From NCBI GenBank assembly GCA_000196815.1, contig FP929003.1, positions 1,511,501 through 1,575,500 on the forward strand: DNA of 64,000 nt, given 5' to 3'. A program made the position numbers and the translations under genes. Positions 8,857 to 55,808 of this stretch are shown here, in pieces. The notes below the pieces were generated by a model that saw nothing but the letters and a program-made list of their open reading frames with translations, ran no database searches and was not told where the DNA came from. Source of the stretch: Nitrospira defluvii (lineage in GTDB: Bacteria; Nitrospirota; Nitrospiria; Nitrospirales; Nitrospiraceae). The stretch's first letter is position 1. Every line of letters starts with the position of its first letter.

Positions 8857-9801
8857 ATGTCCCCACAGTTCTTGTCGCAGGCCTTGCCTGATCGAGCCGA
8901 TCTCATAAGGCGGCCTAGGCTGGGGTTTCTCGGCTCGTTCTTCTTGACCCTCTTCATTGTTCTTCTCACCCTTGGCCTGGCCATACCCTCCTTCTCTGCC
9001 GATCTCTCCGATCGGGAGGAGGACGGGTTGCTGGGTGACGTCCTGTCCGTCGAAACCAGAGAGAGCCTGCTGGTGCAAACCGATCGGTACGATCCGGTCG
9101 GTCGCCTCATCGAGCGCGTTCAGAGCGGCGTGGAGACCTCTCAGGGATTATGGCCGCTTCGATTCGTTTATATCTACGACCAGGCAGGAAGACGGACTGC
9201 CGAGGTTGTGCAGGATGCGCGGGGTGCTGTGGTGAAAGAGACGCGCTCGGTCTACGACGACCGCGGGAATCGTTCCGCCGAACTCGCGGCCTGGGGCGAC
9301 GGCACGTTTGAGAATGTCTCCCTGTATGAATACGACGACGAGCATCGACGAGTCAGAGGGCTTCACTTTAATGGCGTGCGGGTGATCAATCGAAATCTGT
9401 ATGCCTTCGACCCTGCCGGACGGCTGGTGCGTGAGCGGTTCGAACGAAACTATCACTACAATGCAGCCGGGGCTCAGGTTGTCATGACCGATCGGTTCGA
9501 CACCGGGTATGAAGTCGCCATCGTCTATGATGAGCGGGGGCAGGTACGCGAAAAGATTGTGTCCGATCTCCGCGGCCGCCGGCAAGGTCGTTCGGAGTTT
9601 CAATACGACGAACATGGCACTCAGGTCGAAGAGCGCATCGTCAATACCAACGGGCAGGTCACCGAACGAAAAGTCTACCGCTACGAATATGATGCCGTCG
9701 GAAACTGGACTACGGAAACGTTGCAGTGGTGGGAGGTCACCGATGGCCGCGAGACGCTCAAGGAGTCCCACGTTCGCGAGCGGAATATTTTGTACTACTG
9801 A
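8857..9801 (+). CDS. Exported YD/RHS-repeat-like protein
   Basis: A 314-residue protein with a signal anchor (LGFLGSFFLTLFIVLLTLGLA) and then six or more YD-repeat-like units, for example YDPVGRLIERVQSG, YDQAGRRTAEVVQD, YDDRGNRSAELAAW and YEYDAVGNWTTETLQW. YD repeats form beta-coil shells in RHS and teneurin proteins. This short version lacks the RHS core and a toxin C-terminus, so it is better seen as a small extracytoplasmic repeat protein of unknown role. The start at 8857 has a GGGGG just upstream; it begins 13 bases after fabI stops. Confidence 0.65.
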   Translation: MSPQFLSQALPDRADLIRRPRLGFLGSFFLTLFIVLLTLGLAIPSFSADLSDREEDGLLGDVLSVETRESLLVQTDRYDPVGRLIERVQSGVETSQGLWPLRFVYIYDQAGRRTAEVVQDARGAVVKETRSVYDDRGNRSAELAAWGDGTFENVSLYEYDDEHRRVRGLHFNGVRVINRNLYAFDPAGRLVRERFERNYHYNAAGAQVVMTDRFDTGYEVAIVYDERGQVREKIVSDLRGRRQGRSEFQYDEHGTQVEERIVNTNGQVTERKVYRYEYDAVGNWTTETLQWWEVTDGRETLKESHVRERNILYY

Positions 9802-26503: not shown

Positions 26504-26894
26504 GGCGTGCGTAGTTGTCTAGTGAGTTGCTCAAGATTTCGAAGAATAAACCTTGCGGATATCCTGATTCAAGCGCCTTGTGGCGGAGTCTCTCCGCTTA
26601 GCCATTTAGTCTTGAATGAACAGGCCGATGAACAGCAGCCGGTGGTCCAGCACAAGGCGAGTTAGAGCGATCCAAGAATACAATTGGTGAATCTTCTGCG
26701 GCGCCCGGTCGAAGCCCGGCTTACAGTGACCGACCTATCGAACCAGGATTTCGCCGAGGTGGAGTACGCGGAGTTGGCCTGGAATCAGGCTGTGGACAAT
26801 CGCGCGGACATGTCAGTGAGGGGAGAACGGCGTTCTTCATCAGTCCCAACGACGTAGCTCAGCCGCCGCTTCAGGGGGCGTTTGGAACGACTGG
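26504..26894. other. Intergenic region upstream of the sulfate operon
   Basis: This holds the sulfate operon promoter region, not resolved. A nested inverted repeat at about 26571-26624 has outer arms TTCAAG/CTTGAA and an inner perfect GCGGAG-TCT-CTCCGC hairpin at 26584-26598. It may be a regulatory structure; attC identity was considered and rejected. A frame from 26684 (start GTG) to about 26858 reads VEARLTVTDLSNQDFAEVEY but has no family or ribosome site. Confidence 0.4.
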
Positions 26895-27197
26895 TTAACC
26901 ATCTCCCTTCAACCGTTTCCTGATCCATAACGGATTCCTTCGGCAATCCAATACGGCATGCACACGAACCACAGTATTTCCCTCCACGCTGTAATAGATG
27001 GCAAAGGGGAACCGCTTGGAGAGGCAACGGCGATGACCGTAGATGACTTGATGAATTCCGGCGTAAACGAGAAGGGAATCAATGTCTGAGAATAAGCAGT
27101 CTAGGAAGTAGGTCCCAAGACCAGCTTCCCGGCCTTCATAAAAGTGGAAACCCTGGACTAAATCATCCTGGGCTTCGTCCAGAAGCTCGATTCTCAC
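26895..27197 (-). CDS. ParE/RelE-superfamily toxin
   Basis: A 100-residue protein with the ParE fold pattern: VRIELLDEAQDDLVQGFHFY, a long helix up to FLDCLFSDIDSLL, then RCLSKRFPFAIYYSVEGNTV and VHAVLDCRRNPLWIRKRL. ParE toxins poison gyrase and RelE toxins cut mRNA; which applies here is not evident. The GTG start overlaps the antitoxin stop (GTGA), giving coupled translation. A longer in-frame ATG exists at 27236 inside the antitoxin gene, but the GTG start fits the family better. Confidence 0.82.
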   Translation of the reverse strand: MRIELLDEAQDDLVQGFHFYEGREAGLGTYFLDCLFSDIDSLLVYAGIHQVIYGHRRCLSKRFPFAIYYSVEGNTVVRVHAVLDCRRNPLWIRKRLKGDG

Positions 27198-27412
27198 GAA
27201 AGCTTGTTTCGGATGTCCGCTTTGGCGGTCTCCCAATCAATGAATCGAGATTGCCCCTCGGCGAGCCGCTGGCGGCGTTCATCGAGGATGTCCTTGTGCC
27301 AGGCAGGAGACTCAATAGCCTCTGGGGTGCGGGCGAGGTCTTCCCATAGAGACTCCATCGCAGCAAGCTTCTCTTGAAGGCTCATGGCTTTAAGCGGGAG
27401 GTTGAACGACAT
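27194..27412 (-). CDS. Addiction-module antitoxin (Unstab_antitox family)
   Basis: A 72-residue protein of the PF09720 family, recognised by LSLQEKLAAMESLWEDLAR-like start (here MSLQEKLAAMESLWEDLAR), the PAWHKDILDERRQRLAEG motif and the WETAKADIRNKL end. It neutralises the ParE-like toxin encoded just downstream and normally represses the pair. The ATG at 27412 is six bases from a TATACT box, so a leaderless transcript is possible; a GTG at 27436 is an alternative start. Confidence 0.85.
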   Translation of the reverse strand: MSFNLPLKAMSLQEKLAAMESLWEDLARTPEAIESPAWHKDILDERRQRLAEGQSRFIDWETAKADIRNKLS

Positions 27413-27446: not shown

Positions 27447-27533
27447 ATCCCTTTACCTATCGTCCCCGGTGATCGGCCTCGGCGAGCGAGCCAGCGGTTC
27501 GATTGAACATGAGGCAGGCTGAAACAAATACTT

Positions 27534-28079
27534 TCATTGACAGTCCGTGTCCTTCGCACCGCATTCTTTGCATTTCGTATGCGGAAATGAACTTTCTGGA
27601 ACGCGACCGAACAATAGTTCAGCGTTCTCCTGAAAAAGATGGTAGCAGTAATCAAAAACACCCTGAATGTTTAGCTGGGCGATGCCCCGGTTCTTTGGGT
27701 GATCCAAGTGATGGATAAGCGCGTTTGCGTATTTCCGCAGCGCCGCTAATTCGGGAAATAACCGTGAGCGGATTACGTTAATGCCTAAGGTCGTCTCTCG
27801 ACACTTCGCGCAGGGAATTGCGGGATCCTCGACGATACAACTTTGAATCTGCCGCATCAGATACGTGTCTGCCGAACGCGTGGCGAGTGCAACGACGTAA
27901 GCACTCGATAGCTTTTCCATCCAATCGCGGCCACTTGAGAAGGTGTCGTAAGCTCGTAGTGCAGTAGTTCTCTGAACGATTGCCATTGCAACTTGTACCG
28001 CTGGCCCTTCACCCGCTCTCAGGCCTACGGCATCAATGGGCTTCGGCGAAAAAGCCAAATTGTCGGTGGTCGCATCCAT
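27534..28079 (-). CDS. Cassette gene: unknown protein with zinc-like cysteines
   Basis: A 181-residue protein that starts six bases after the attC site at 28085-28162, as expected for an integron cassette gene. It is helical (VQVAMAIVQRTTALRAYDTF) and has a CAKC motif mid-way and a CKECGAKDTDC tail that could bind zinc. LRKYANALIHHLDHPKN resembles the motif region of HEPN/AbiU2-type proteins, but the Arg-to-His spacing is not canonical, so this is weak. No attC was recognised downstream. It has lower GC than the neighbouring metabolic genes. Confidence 0.65.
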   Translation of the reverse strand: MDATTDNLAFSPKPIDAVGLRAGEGPAVQVAMAIVQRTTALRAYDTFSSGRDWMEKLSSAYVVALATRSADTYLMRQIQSCIVEDPAIPCAKCRETTLGINVIRSRLFPELAALRKYANALIHHLDHPKNRGIAQLNIQGVFDYCYHLFQENAELLFGRVPESSFPHTKCKECGAKDTDCQ

Positions 28080-28084
28080 TTAAA

Positions 28085-28162
28085 TCCTAACGTGCGACAT
28101 GACCGGCATGACGCGGCAGGCTTCGCCTATCGTGTCATGTCCGCTCGATGGAGGGGTTAGCC
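28085..28162 (-). other. Integron attC site (78 bp)
   Basis: Read on the reverse strand, it begins at GGCTAAC and ends at GTTAGGA, the outer core pair, and contains the CCCCTCCATCGAGCGGAC-type arm common in environmental attC sites, with the partner arm GGTCATGTCGCACGTTAGG. The arms pair into an imperfect hairpin with unpaired bases. The end of the cassette gene at 28135-28446 is read from this site and closes with NPSIERT, a C-terminal tail known from attC read-through. Confidence 0.85.
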
Positions 28163-28446
28163 ACCACCGCCCAACAGCATGCTGTAGTAGTCCTTTCGAC
28201 TACGAGCGTTCCCGGAGGAACGCCTGACCGAGACAAGTGATGCCGTACTCGCTGCCGTCGACCATAAGATGGGCGGCTCTCTTCATAAAGCCTATTCAGT
28301 AGCGTTGCACCGGATCGCGCGTATGCTTTCGCTTCTGCCCTTTGACTGAGCGTAGATGTCTTCCCCTCGATCCAAGCGCAAAGTTTTCGTGGCGTTCTTG
28401 GCAGCACCATGTCGGTCGGATCGAGGATGAACTCGAATAAGTTCAT
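28135..28446 (-). CDS. Cassette gene: small unknown protein, probably frameshifted
   Basis: A 103-codon frame that starts four bases after the attC site at 28450-28511 and whose last codons are encoded by the next attC (ends NPSIERT). Residues 1-60 look like a real protein (MNLFEFILDPTDMVLPRTP, LCAWIEGKTSTLSQRAEAKA). After LNRLYEESRP the frame turns basic and unnatural, while another frame reads HLMVDGSEYGITCLGQAFLR and stops at 28200. One base gained or lost near 28285 would explain it. No family was recognised. Confidence 0.55.
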   Translation of the reverse strand: MNLFEFILDPTDMVLPRTPRKLCAWIEGKTSTLSQRAEAKAYARSGATLLNRLYEESRPSYGRRQRVRHHLSRSGVPPGTLVVERTTTACCWAVVANPSIERT

Positions 28447-28449
28447 AAA

Positions 28450-28511
28450 GACCTGACGCTTGAACTCAGTCGCGCGGCGAAGCAGCGTCGGCGTGAGTGA
28501 ATTGTTAGGGC
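28450..28511 (-). other. Integron attC site (about 61 bp, aadA-type)
   Basis: Read on the reverse strand it begins CCCTAACAATTCACTCACGC, has a central GACGCTGCTTCGCCGCGCG hairpin and ends TTCAAGCGTCAGGT. Order, spacing and sequence closely follow the short attC class of class 1 integron cassettes such as aadA1. The 3' core is GTCAGGT instead of GTTRRRY, so recombination efficiency may be reduced. It overlaps the TAA stop of the nuclease-like gene at 28505. Confidence 0.9.
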
Positions 28512-28894
28512 TCAACAAACAGCCCATCAACAAGCTTCTGTGAGATGACGAACGGTGCCATGTCAGTCTCACAGTTGACGCGGAGTCCGACAAGTTGGTT
28601 TTTTGCTACCAAGTACACTTTGGTTTGGTCTAGCAACAGCTCAGTGTCGTGTTCGTGCAGCTTGACGAGTGCGACTAGATGATACTTTTCTGGAAGATCG
28701 AGCGGAGTATGAAACTGGTTTGTGCAGGTCTTGACCTGGATCGTTTTGACCGCGTAACCCTTGAGCGCGATTAGATCATTGCCGCTGTCTTTTATTGGAG
28801 CAGCGGCTTGTACTCCATATTGAAGCAGGCGGGTCTGCACAAGCAGCTCTCCGATTGTGCCTTTGACCATGTTTTCAGATATCGGATTAGCCAC
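28505..28894 (-). CDS. Cassette gene: PD-(D/E)XK nuclease-like protein
   Basis: A 129-residue protein resembling the PDDEXK_5 family. The fold signs are KGTIGELLVQTRLLQYG with the Glu helix, SGNDLIALKGY with the metal-binding Asp, and AVKTIQVKTC with the Q-x-K variant of the third motif. Such proteins cut or bind DNA and are frequent integron cargo. It starts a few bases after the attC core at 28902 with a GTG; an in-frame ATG at 28870 is an alternative. The TAA stop lies within the next attC. Activity is not established. Confidence 0.7.
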   Translation of the reverse strand: MANPISENMVKGTIGELLVQTRLLQYGVQAAAPIKDSGNDLIALKGYAVKTIQVKTCTNQFHTPLDLPEKYHLVALVKLHEHDTELLLDQTKVYLVAKNQLVGLRVNCETDMAPFVISQKLVDGLFVEP

Positions 28895-28901
28895 GGGTTG
28901 A

Positions 28902-28979
28902 GCCCTGACAATTGAATATATTGAAGAGCATGGTACGCGGGTACTGCGTGCCGGCTCTCCCACAATTCAAATGTTGGTT
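28902..28979 (-). other. Probable integron attC site (about 78 bp)
   Basis: Read on the reverse strand it begins CCAACATTTGAAT and ends ATTCAATTGTCAGGGC. Outer arms TTGAAT/ATTCAA and inner arms GAGAGC..GCTCTTC and GGCACGC..GCGTACC pair with small bulges, the layout of a folded attC. Its 3' core GTCAGGG matches that of the site at 28450. The 5' core is divergent, so this site is less certain than the other two. The gene it would close is not recognised. Confidence 0.65.
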
Positions 28980-29421
28980 TATAGGCTTATCAGCTCTATT
29001 CCCCACACAGGGGAGCTTGCTATGCGAACGATAATACCGTGATAGGTGTGCAGGACTCAATGTGATTGGCGGCAATACGTCCACGATCCGGAATTTGATG
29101 AGCAGGTGAGGAGGATCCCTCGATGCGTGCTGAAAGAGATGCCTGACGGACAGAGGAATGGGTGAATAGGCAACAGTGCGCTCATCCGAGCGCCCGAAAC
29201 ACCAGCCCCAGAGGATTTCTGACACCAGTCTGCCCTCTAGATTCACGTAGCTTGTGGCGGAGGCAACAGAGTCGAACCGCGCGTCCGTTGTAGCAGCATC
29301 GCCTATGCAACTCATTGAAATCGGAGCTTCAGTTTCTTGACACCCTGTAACCGTTCTTGCTAGCTTCAGCCTGTTTTTCATCAGCCACCACCAGCAGCCT
29401 GCTGCTAGATCTGGATACCCG
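28980..29421. other. Non-coding stretch with a tmRNA 3'-end-like sequence
   Basis: No supported gene. On the reverse strand, 29288-29256 reads GGACGCGCGGTTCGACTC then TGTTGCCTCCGCCA, close to the 3' end of tmRNA (a GGACG, T-loop TTCGACT and final CCA). The T-stem is degenerate and no 5' half or ALAA tag frame is present, so it is not an intact gene. tmRNA 3' ends are common island attachment sites, so it may be a fossil att site. Confidence 0.35.
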
Positions 29422-54079: not shown

Positions 54080-54274
54080 GTGCAATATTGGGTGAAAGTC
54101 GTGTTTGCCGACAATCAGGAATTACTGGTGAAAGATGCGATTCGTCACACGATCAGCGAAGACATGGAAGTGCTGGAAGTTGATTCGGCCAAGGAAGTGA
54201 TCATCGTCCCCATGAAACAGATTAAGTACATCGCCTGCGATGCCACGGTGTTCGCGCAAAAATCAAAGGCTTAG
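54080..54274 (+). CDS. Small protein gene used as island insertion site
   Basis: A 64-residue protein of unknown function (VQYWVKVVFADNQELLVKDA, EVLEVDSAKEVIIVPMKQIK, ending FAQKSKA) with alternating beta strands. The GTG at 54080 lies eight bases after AAGGAG; a GTG at 54071 overlaps that site. The last 17 or so codons are the attL of the 5.7-kb element that follows, and a second, diverged copy of this 3' end lies at 59878-59930. The stop overlaps the opposing integrase stop. Confidence 0.75.
   Translation: MQYWVKVVFADNQELLVKDAIRHTISEDMEVLEVDSAKEVIIVPMKQIKYIACDATVFAQKSKA
54230..54274. other. attL: 3' end of target gene at the island border
   Basis: This 45-bp segment and 59887-59930 share TGCGATGC, ACG and TTCGCGCA blocks in the same order and encode CDATVFAQKSKA and CDATMFAQKAKA, both followed by a stop. 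They flank the element and are the probable crossover zone. Confidence 0.75.
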
Positions 54275-55505
54275 CGATTTTCATGAGCCTTGGTCACGGT
54301 TCCAAAACCGATTGTTAGCGTATCCAGCTTATCGACCGCTTGTCGATTCCCGCCTGGGATCAGAGGTCCGTAGGTGTCACAGGTGATGGTAATCGAGGCA
54401 TGGCCCAGTTGTTCTTGGACGTATTTTAAGTTCTCGCCATTCGCGATGAGTCGGCTTGCATAAGTATGGCGAACGCTGTGCATATCGAGTCGTCACAGTC
54501 CCGCTTTCGCCACCATGGGAAACCAGAGTTTGTACCGCAGCCAATTTTCGGCCATATAACTGGGCTCCCGCCTGGTTCCGCCAAGATTACCTGGAAAGAG
54601 GATTTCAGGCGCTGCCTGTCCAGCGGCTGCCGCCTCCAGATCCTGTAACTCGATCCATTCTGTCAGAGCCTTCGCGAGACCCTTGGACATGTCCACCCGC
54701 CTGGCTTTACCGTTCTTGGGTGTGCCCAGGATTCCCCGCGACCAGTTCCGTTGAACGTAGATTGATCGGCTGTGAAAGTTCAGATCGCCGCGATGGAGTC
54801 CAAGCACCTCTCCGGCTCGCAGGCCGGTGCGAAAGAAGGTCAGGGCCATCGGGTAAAACAGCGGGCGTTCGCGTCAGATCGTTTCCAGCAACAGGCCTTC
54901 CTCTTCGGGGGTGAAGATCGCGAGTTCGGATTCCTCGATGGTCGCCGGCCGTTTCAACAGTTTGCGGAACGGAGGGCAGGATTATGGGTGATCAGGCCAT
55001 CCTCGACGGCTTCGGTCAACACCGCACTGAGCGTCAAGAGTGCATTCAGCGCCGTATCGAAATCCAAACCCATTTCCAGCAGCCCTGCGGCCCATGCTTT
55101 GATGCGGGGTCGTGAGATGGCAGAGCGTTGAGAAGTTCCGAAGGCGGGCAGGGCATGTTTTCGTAATCGCGACTCGTATGTCTTGATCGTCGTAATCTTC
55201 TTGCCGCGTGCCGGTTGATTTTTGAGCCACGTCACGAAGTAATCTTTCAGCAGGATTGATTTGGTTTTCTTCGGTTTGGGGAAGAGTTTTCCCTCTCGTG
55301 CTTCGGCCTTCAACTTGCCATACAGCGTGCGTGCTTGGCTTTTTGTCTCGCACTTGCGCCATGTCTGGCGCCCCTCTTCATAGACACGCACCCACCAGCC
55401 TTCTCGGCCTTTCCGTTGGGTGATCCCTCTATCCTTGCCCTCTTTACAATGGCAAGCCCTCCATGGGCTCCGGTCGTCTGGATCATGGCCTATCAGCCCA
55501 GCCAT
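54271..55505 (-). pseudogene. Tyrosine-recombinase integrase, decayed
   Basis: Reading on the reverse strand from about 55505: an N-terminal AP2-like/arm segment (GREGWWVRVYEEGRQTWRKC), a core-binding SAM-like part (IKTYESRLRKHALPAFGTS), and a catalytic domain with RTGLRAGEVLGL (Arg I), HSVRHTYASRL (H-x-x-R), LGHASITITCDTYG (His, Tyr). Three lesions break it: a frameshift near 54966 (after NPALRS), a TGA near 54875 (ETI*RERP) and a TGA near 54493 (AGL*RLDMHS); both stops look like CGA to TGA. It cannot make a full integrase. Confidence 0.85.
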
Positions 55506-55808
55506 CGTTCTCGAAACCGCCTGAGCCGCTATGTCATCAGCCAGTACGTTCAGGATCAATGCGGCTACGTGAATATGTGCTGGTCTTGGAAACGGTCCCT
55601 TGGGTTTCCCATCAGTCGGCTGTGGGAAGAGATGCGGCACCAATGGTCCCCCAGGAACGCCTATCGCCGGATCAGGGGAGAGATCGAAATCCCGCACATT
55701 GTTTTTATCAAGACCTGGGAGGATCTGCTCTCGGGGCATCCGATTTGGTTTAGCGGGACTATTTTGCAACTGGTGTTGGGAAAGGGGCTGGTTTGTCAGG
55801 AGGTGTAA
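55485..55808 (+). CDS. Island gene: unknown basic/aromatic protein
   Basis: A 107-residue frame (MAYQPSHRSRNRLSRYVISQ, WSWKRSLGFPISRLWEEMRH, PHIVFIKTWEDLLSGHPIWF). It looks like true protein but has no clear ribosome site, and its first 20 bases overlap the 5' end of the opposing integrase remnant. Its stop is two bases before the next gene, supporting a small operon. No family was recognised. Confidence 0.5.
   Translation: MAYQPSHRSRNRLSRYVISQYVQDQCGYVNMCWSWKRSLGFPISRLWEEMRHQWSPRNAYRRIRGEIEIPHIVFIKTWEDLLSGHPIWFSGTILQLVLGKGLVCQEV

Follow-up and report, generated by a model that had tools for sequence, protein, structure and literature searches.

A probable cluster of integron gene cassettes, partly decayed and without an adjacent integrase, between rrf2 and glyQ in Nitrospira defluvii

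Results and discussion

In a stretch of 64 kb from the genome of Nitrospira defluvii (hereafter the window; positions 1511501-1575500 of a single-contig genome of 4,317,083 bp), an insertion separates glyQ from the gene of an Rrf2-family regulator, the two flanking genes diverging from its sides. We conclude, with a probability that we put at about 93%, that this insertion is a cluster of attC sites lacking an integron integrase (CALIN), made up of four minus-strand gene cassettes that are partly decayed and have a diverged attC in front. Each of the four cassettes is closed by its own attC or by the relic of one (Table 1). A CALIN is a known kind of element; the cargo of this one is mostly uncharacterised. 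Two attC sites, A and B, lie about 290 bp apart, all sites are in one orientation on the minus strand with genes between them, and there is no integron integrase nearby, as judged by a search of the whole genome with TIGR02249, which gave no match over cut-off, and by tblastn of the insert. Since sites A and B are clear, the array reaches the threshold of two attC sites applied by IntegronFinder 2 (PMC9024848). It is not a complete integron, for which an adjacent intI is missing; attI was not searched for. A sequence-only reading of the window had already proposed a CALIN of three sites, and the two clear attCs, together with cassette-sized units gained or lost at the cores in sister genomes, support that proposal. 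The three-site array is for the most part borne out but incomplete, as a fourth attC (26843-26900) and the toxin-antitoxin cassette in front of it had been missed.

Table 1. Features of the cassette array and its borders, in window coordinates
Feature	Position	Strand	Remarks
Border repeat, left copy	26562..26588		imperfect direct repeat bordering the insert, CCTGATTCAAGCGCCTTGTGGC
attC_D	26843..26900	-	degenerate, closes cassette 4; R1 match 26847-26897, 15.5 bits, E 0.09; R2 13.5 bits
Cassette 4	26895..27412	-	antitoxin Unstab_antitox 27194-27412; ParE-like toxin 26895-27236
Relic of cassette 3 attC	27455..27520	-	limits approximate; GCCTAACCTCATAGTCAACCGG in G172 aligned with GCCTGCCTCATGTTCAATCG in the window
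Cassette gene 3	27534..28079	-	181-aa protein with seven Cys; function not recognised
attC_A	28085..28162	-	attC of cassette 2; R' GTTAGGA 28085-28091; R1 32.7 bits, E 5e-6; R2 35.0 bits
Cassette gene 2	28135..28446	-	103-aa frame; residues 6-60 align at 51% identity with part of a 232-aa G343 frame
attC_B	28451..28510	-	short aadA-type, cassette 1; R' GTCAGGT 28451-28457; R1 38.2 bits, E 2e-7; R2 45.3 bits
Cassette gene 1	28505..28894	-	129-aa PD-(D/E)XK-like nuclease, GTG start
attC_C	28902..28979	-	first site of the array; diverged attC-like imperfect palindrome; R' core GTCAGGG 28903-28909
Border repeat, right copy	29238..29268		degenerate, limits approximate; placed by aligning four occupied sites with four empty ones
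Order of cassettes		-	PD-(D/E)XK-like nuclease / truncated gene / 181-aa unknown / antitoxin-toxin pair

attC sites

The sites were scored with two covariance models of our own: R1, built from 19 attCs of plasmid integrons, a Desulforapulum plasmid and one integron of the same genus, none of them from the window, and R2, built from 45 matches in other genomes of the genus. A search of the 64 kb with R1, filters off, ranks attC_B first, attC_A second and attC_D, directly behind the ParE-like gene, third; A and B are two of the seven R1 matches at E<=10 in the entire 4.3 Mb genome. Both models place minus-strand matches on two of the three sites originally proposed to share one orientation (28085-28162 and 28450-28511), but leave the third (28902-28979) unmatched. 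The likeness of the middle site to the attC of aadA cassettes is confirmed by blastn, which finds matches to attC_B in 1,325 plasmid records, many sharing about 84-86% identity across 56-57 bp (best E-value 4e-9), and the arm stretches CCATCGAG and TCATGTC of attC_A are common to aacA4-type attCs. It had also been pointed out that the genes start shortly after the cores, and they do so at 4-8 bases (small gene, ATG 28446, core end 28451; 181-aa gene, ATG 28079, core end 28085; PD-(D/E)XK-like gene, GTG 28894, core end 28903).

The pairing of R'' with R' and of L'' with L' that the model describes, one base staying unpaired, is present in A, B and D, and in A and B the matches are significant but several pairs are broken. 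The ortholog of attC_D in G019 (L110:827-878) scores 37.0 bits with R1 (E 5e-7) and has all modelled pairs intact; therefore, the antitoxin-toxin pair is a cassette. The relic of the cassette 3 attC gives no R1 or R2 match in the window. Folding of each site, a check proposed with the sequence-only reading, favours only the site that the models leave out: the bottom strand of C is more stably folded than most shuffles (z -2.85, 3/200 shuffles), but A, B and D are not set apart by energy (z -1.22, -0.86 and +0.91, respectively). Because these three show no significant gain over shuffles, folding energy is not used as evidence for them, and we rejected it as an attC test since it does not discriminate. 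Site C is probably a diverged attC, because it folds better than most shuffles and forms the boundary of an 806-bp block described below; its ortholog in G009 retains an R'-like GTTAGAT, and the homology between the window and G009 breaks at this site. The strict pattern RYYYAAC...GTTRRRY matches none of the sites, and no Rfam family reaches its gathering threshold in the window, the region giving chance matches only; whether Rfam holds an attC model was not checked.

Comparison of the gap between rrf2 and glyQ in sister genomes

The gap was measured wherever rrf2 and glyQ lie on one piece, that is, in 25 genomes including that of the window; among the genomes of the genus, G006 (whose contig stops before glyQ) and G001, G007 and G024 (no close rrf2 ortholog) fall outside this count. 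The gap is empty, at about 190-255 bp, in 21 of the 25 and filled in the other four, where it measures 2,918 bp (window), 2,146 bp (G009), 1,351 bp (G019) and 1,117 bp (G015). It is also filled in a further Nitrospira metagenome-assembled genome (MAG) from another collection (MAG_266, L134). When the window is aligned with G009, homology covers positions 1-1600 of the insert and resumes from 2407, and the 806 bp absent in G009 correspond to the nuclease and truncated-gene cassettes, with the attC_C and attC_A cores as their ends. In G009, G172 and G271, two of which belong to other genera, homology to the 181-aa gene likewise sets in at the attC core. In a tree of rrf2 and glyQ the occupied genomes are spread over more than one clade, a scatter that fits losses and transfer alike.

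The sequence common to the four occupied sites amounts to about 320 bp towards rrf2 and to at least 200 bp towards glyQ. In the repeat that borders the insert, the left flank in the window and the right flank in G015 agree exactly over 22-23 bp, and GATTCAAGC of this repeat is present once in most empty sites. Promoter-like sites stand on the minus strand before the array (29060-29031) and before the antitoxin gene (27446-27419), a count no greater than expected by chance.

Several observations weigh against a cassette array. Site C lacks the modelled attC pairing as well as any match to R1 or R2, and two sites have R' cores with GTC rather than GTT. G009 is no clean excision product: it retains 17 bp between its two GTTAG cores, so that removing two cassettes from the window would not by itself yield it. 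The deletions that distinguish the versions in G019 and MAG_266 do not end at attC cores.

Integrases in the genome and the genus

As had been stated, the window contains no intI. The sole tyrosine recombinase found in it is broken and was rejected as an IntI, scoring 26 bits against a cut-off of 265 (TIGR02249); this phage-type gene lies on the minus strand at 54271-55769 (match ~54271-54849), downstream of a proC-like gene. No IntI exceeds the cut-off in the genome as a whole, and when three intact IntI proteins of the genus served as tblastn queries, no credible intI relic came up in the insert of the window or in L110, L114, L119 or L134. The same search recovers an intI relic at 3.17 Mb, all that the genome keeps of this gene: a broken C-terminal piece (L130 ~9541-9701), 1.63 Mb from the array and near two attC matches, with 96% identity to an intact IntI of the genus across 23 residues. 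IntI over cut-off is found in 4/29 genomes of the genus (G021, G028, G016 and G001), and some genomes of the genus have intI with attCs nearby.

The surroundings of the relic (L130:8409-9701, genome 3.168-3.170 Mb), where two attCs flank a 110-aa gene, look like a decayed integron. A second array (L131:8041-9847, genome 3.816-3.818 Mb) has HigB/HigA-like and VOC-like genes with an attC after each, and single attC matches occur at 2870923-2870987, 2878436-2878528 and 4230024-4230082. In the integron of G021 (L027), intI and the downstream attCs are on one strand.

Origin of the array

The cassettes were most probably assembled, and some of them later added or removed, by an integron integrase that used the attC bottom strands in their folded form. 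No integrase is now present at the array, and part of the array is in decay, as seen in the degenerate attC_D and cassette 3 attC, the probable truncation of gene 2 and the divergence of attC_C. Capture by an integrase in trans, as the sequence-only reading had it, is plausible. The sequences themselves show two clear attCs, differences of cassette size between sister genomes at the cores, an array free of intI and a relic of that gene elsewhere in the genome; the identity of the integrase, its action in trans, the first entry of the insert and any present recombination at a site are inferred.

That the cassettes entered singly at a secondary chromosomal site, with the integrase supplied in trans, is a serious possibility that we rate somewhat below even odds. 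It agrees with the occurrence of IntI in a minority of the genus, with the intI relic in the genome itself and with the other attC matches scattered across it, but the imperfect direct repeat of about 22 bp around the insert is not expected from IntI insertion at a secondary site, and the flanks common to the four occupied sites resemble an older insert, into or with which the cassettes came. We find it rather unlikely that a complete chromosomal integron once stood here and lost intI and attI, leaving the array as its remainder; in favour of it, part of the 5' flank is common to G009 and holds the promoter-like site at 29060-29031, yet the search with intact IntI proteins that detects the relic at 3.17 Mb finds no credible one in the inserts. 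Finally, a reading of the sites as palindromes arisen by chance, as ends of transposons or as terminators, in an array not derived from an integron, is scarcely credible, for even with A, B and D unexceptional in folding energy and C unmatched by the models, it is contradicted by the model E-values, the identity of the aadA-type site to plasmid cassettes and the homology breaks at the cores.

Cassette cargo

The cargo had been listed as an unknown Cys-rich gene, a small gene and a PD-(D/E)XK-like gene; of these, the small gene appears to be what truncation has left of a larger protein. The 129-aa nuclease-like protein is 80% identical to a protein of a Pseudohongiella MAG and 41-48% identical to proteins of six other MAGs, including Candidatus Methanoperedens. 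The family conserves the motifs GTxGE, PIKDSGNDLIA and, in most members, IQVKT; of the PD-(D/E)XK residues, E and D are conserved and QxK is present in most. The AlphaFold model has a mean predicted local distance difference test score (pLDDT) of 82, and its top Foldseek listing comprises SPARDA nucleases, I-Ssp6803I and Hjc, all at E > 0.001 (1.8e-3 or worse); Pfam PDDEXK_5 stays below cut-off. Homology with the Pseudohongiella gene extends from just upstream of the start to the beginning of the attC, and more repeats resembling attC occur at that locus, along with a single weak match to the model. Among the loci of nuclease homologs, attC model matches occur only at those of Pseudohongiella and a Nitrospira MAG. 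No homologs were found in phages, and plasmids hold only weak ones. The idea that this GTxGE...PIKDSGNDLIA...QVKT family is cassette cargo crossing phyla, with a defence or selfish role, is a long shot.

The 103-aa frame of gene 2 has no strong match besides the one in G343 and is probably, judged from this alignment, what is left of a larger protein. Apart from its own genome, 3/346 searched genomes of the phylum have a complete homolog of the 181-aa protein (87%, 87% and 79% identity); one further match is weak, and viral contigs and plasmids gave no credible homolog. Its single-sequence structure prediction (mean pLDDT 41) is unusable. In cassette 4 the antitoxin matches PF09720 (E 1e-15), and the toxin matches ParE_toxin below cut-off (E 0.003). 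The DNA of this pair is about 97% identical to that in G019 and 98% to that in MAG_266, where glyQ is 91% and 85% identical, respectively. Because the pair is more alike than glyQ (98% versus 85%, MAG_266), the comparison suggests that it was transferred between lineages. PADLOC matched nothing among the cassette proteins.

Comparison with known systems

Both CALINs reported for this phylum with IntegronFinder 2 are in Ca. Nitrospira inopinata (PMC9024848). Compared by description, they resemble the present array in having at least two attCs in the same orientation that separate small genes, with no nearby intI; they differ in belonging to another genome, whereas here sister genomes reveal cassette-sized differences. 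The genome of Ca. N. inopinata is smaller, at about 3.3 Mb. Integrons are little described for Nitrospira-type nitrifiers in the literature searched, and we recognised no paper describing this locus, subscription journals being mostly outside the search. The locus exemplifies how cassettes are gained, lost and degraded at a single place in the chromosome among these nitrifiers, and the same nuclease gene stands in what appear to be cassette arrays both in a nitrifier and in a MAG of the Gammaproteobacteria.

Nucleases of the I-Ssp6803I and PDDEXK_5 kind are among the best fold matches of the nuclease-like cassette protein and have in common with most members of its family the QxK variant of the motif, but the Pfam and Foldseek scores fall short and the family consists of stand-alone proteins of 115-132 aa. 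No resistance gene was recognised in the cargo of this array, unlike that of class 1 cassettes, to whose aadA-type and aacA4-type attCs attC_B and the arm stretches of attC_A, respectively, are nevertheless close. The integrons of G021, G028, G016 and G001 differ from the array in having their own IntI over cut-off, in G021 on the same strand as the downstream attCs, and are like it in their small cassettes and in attCs that match the same model.
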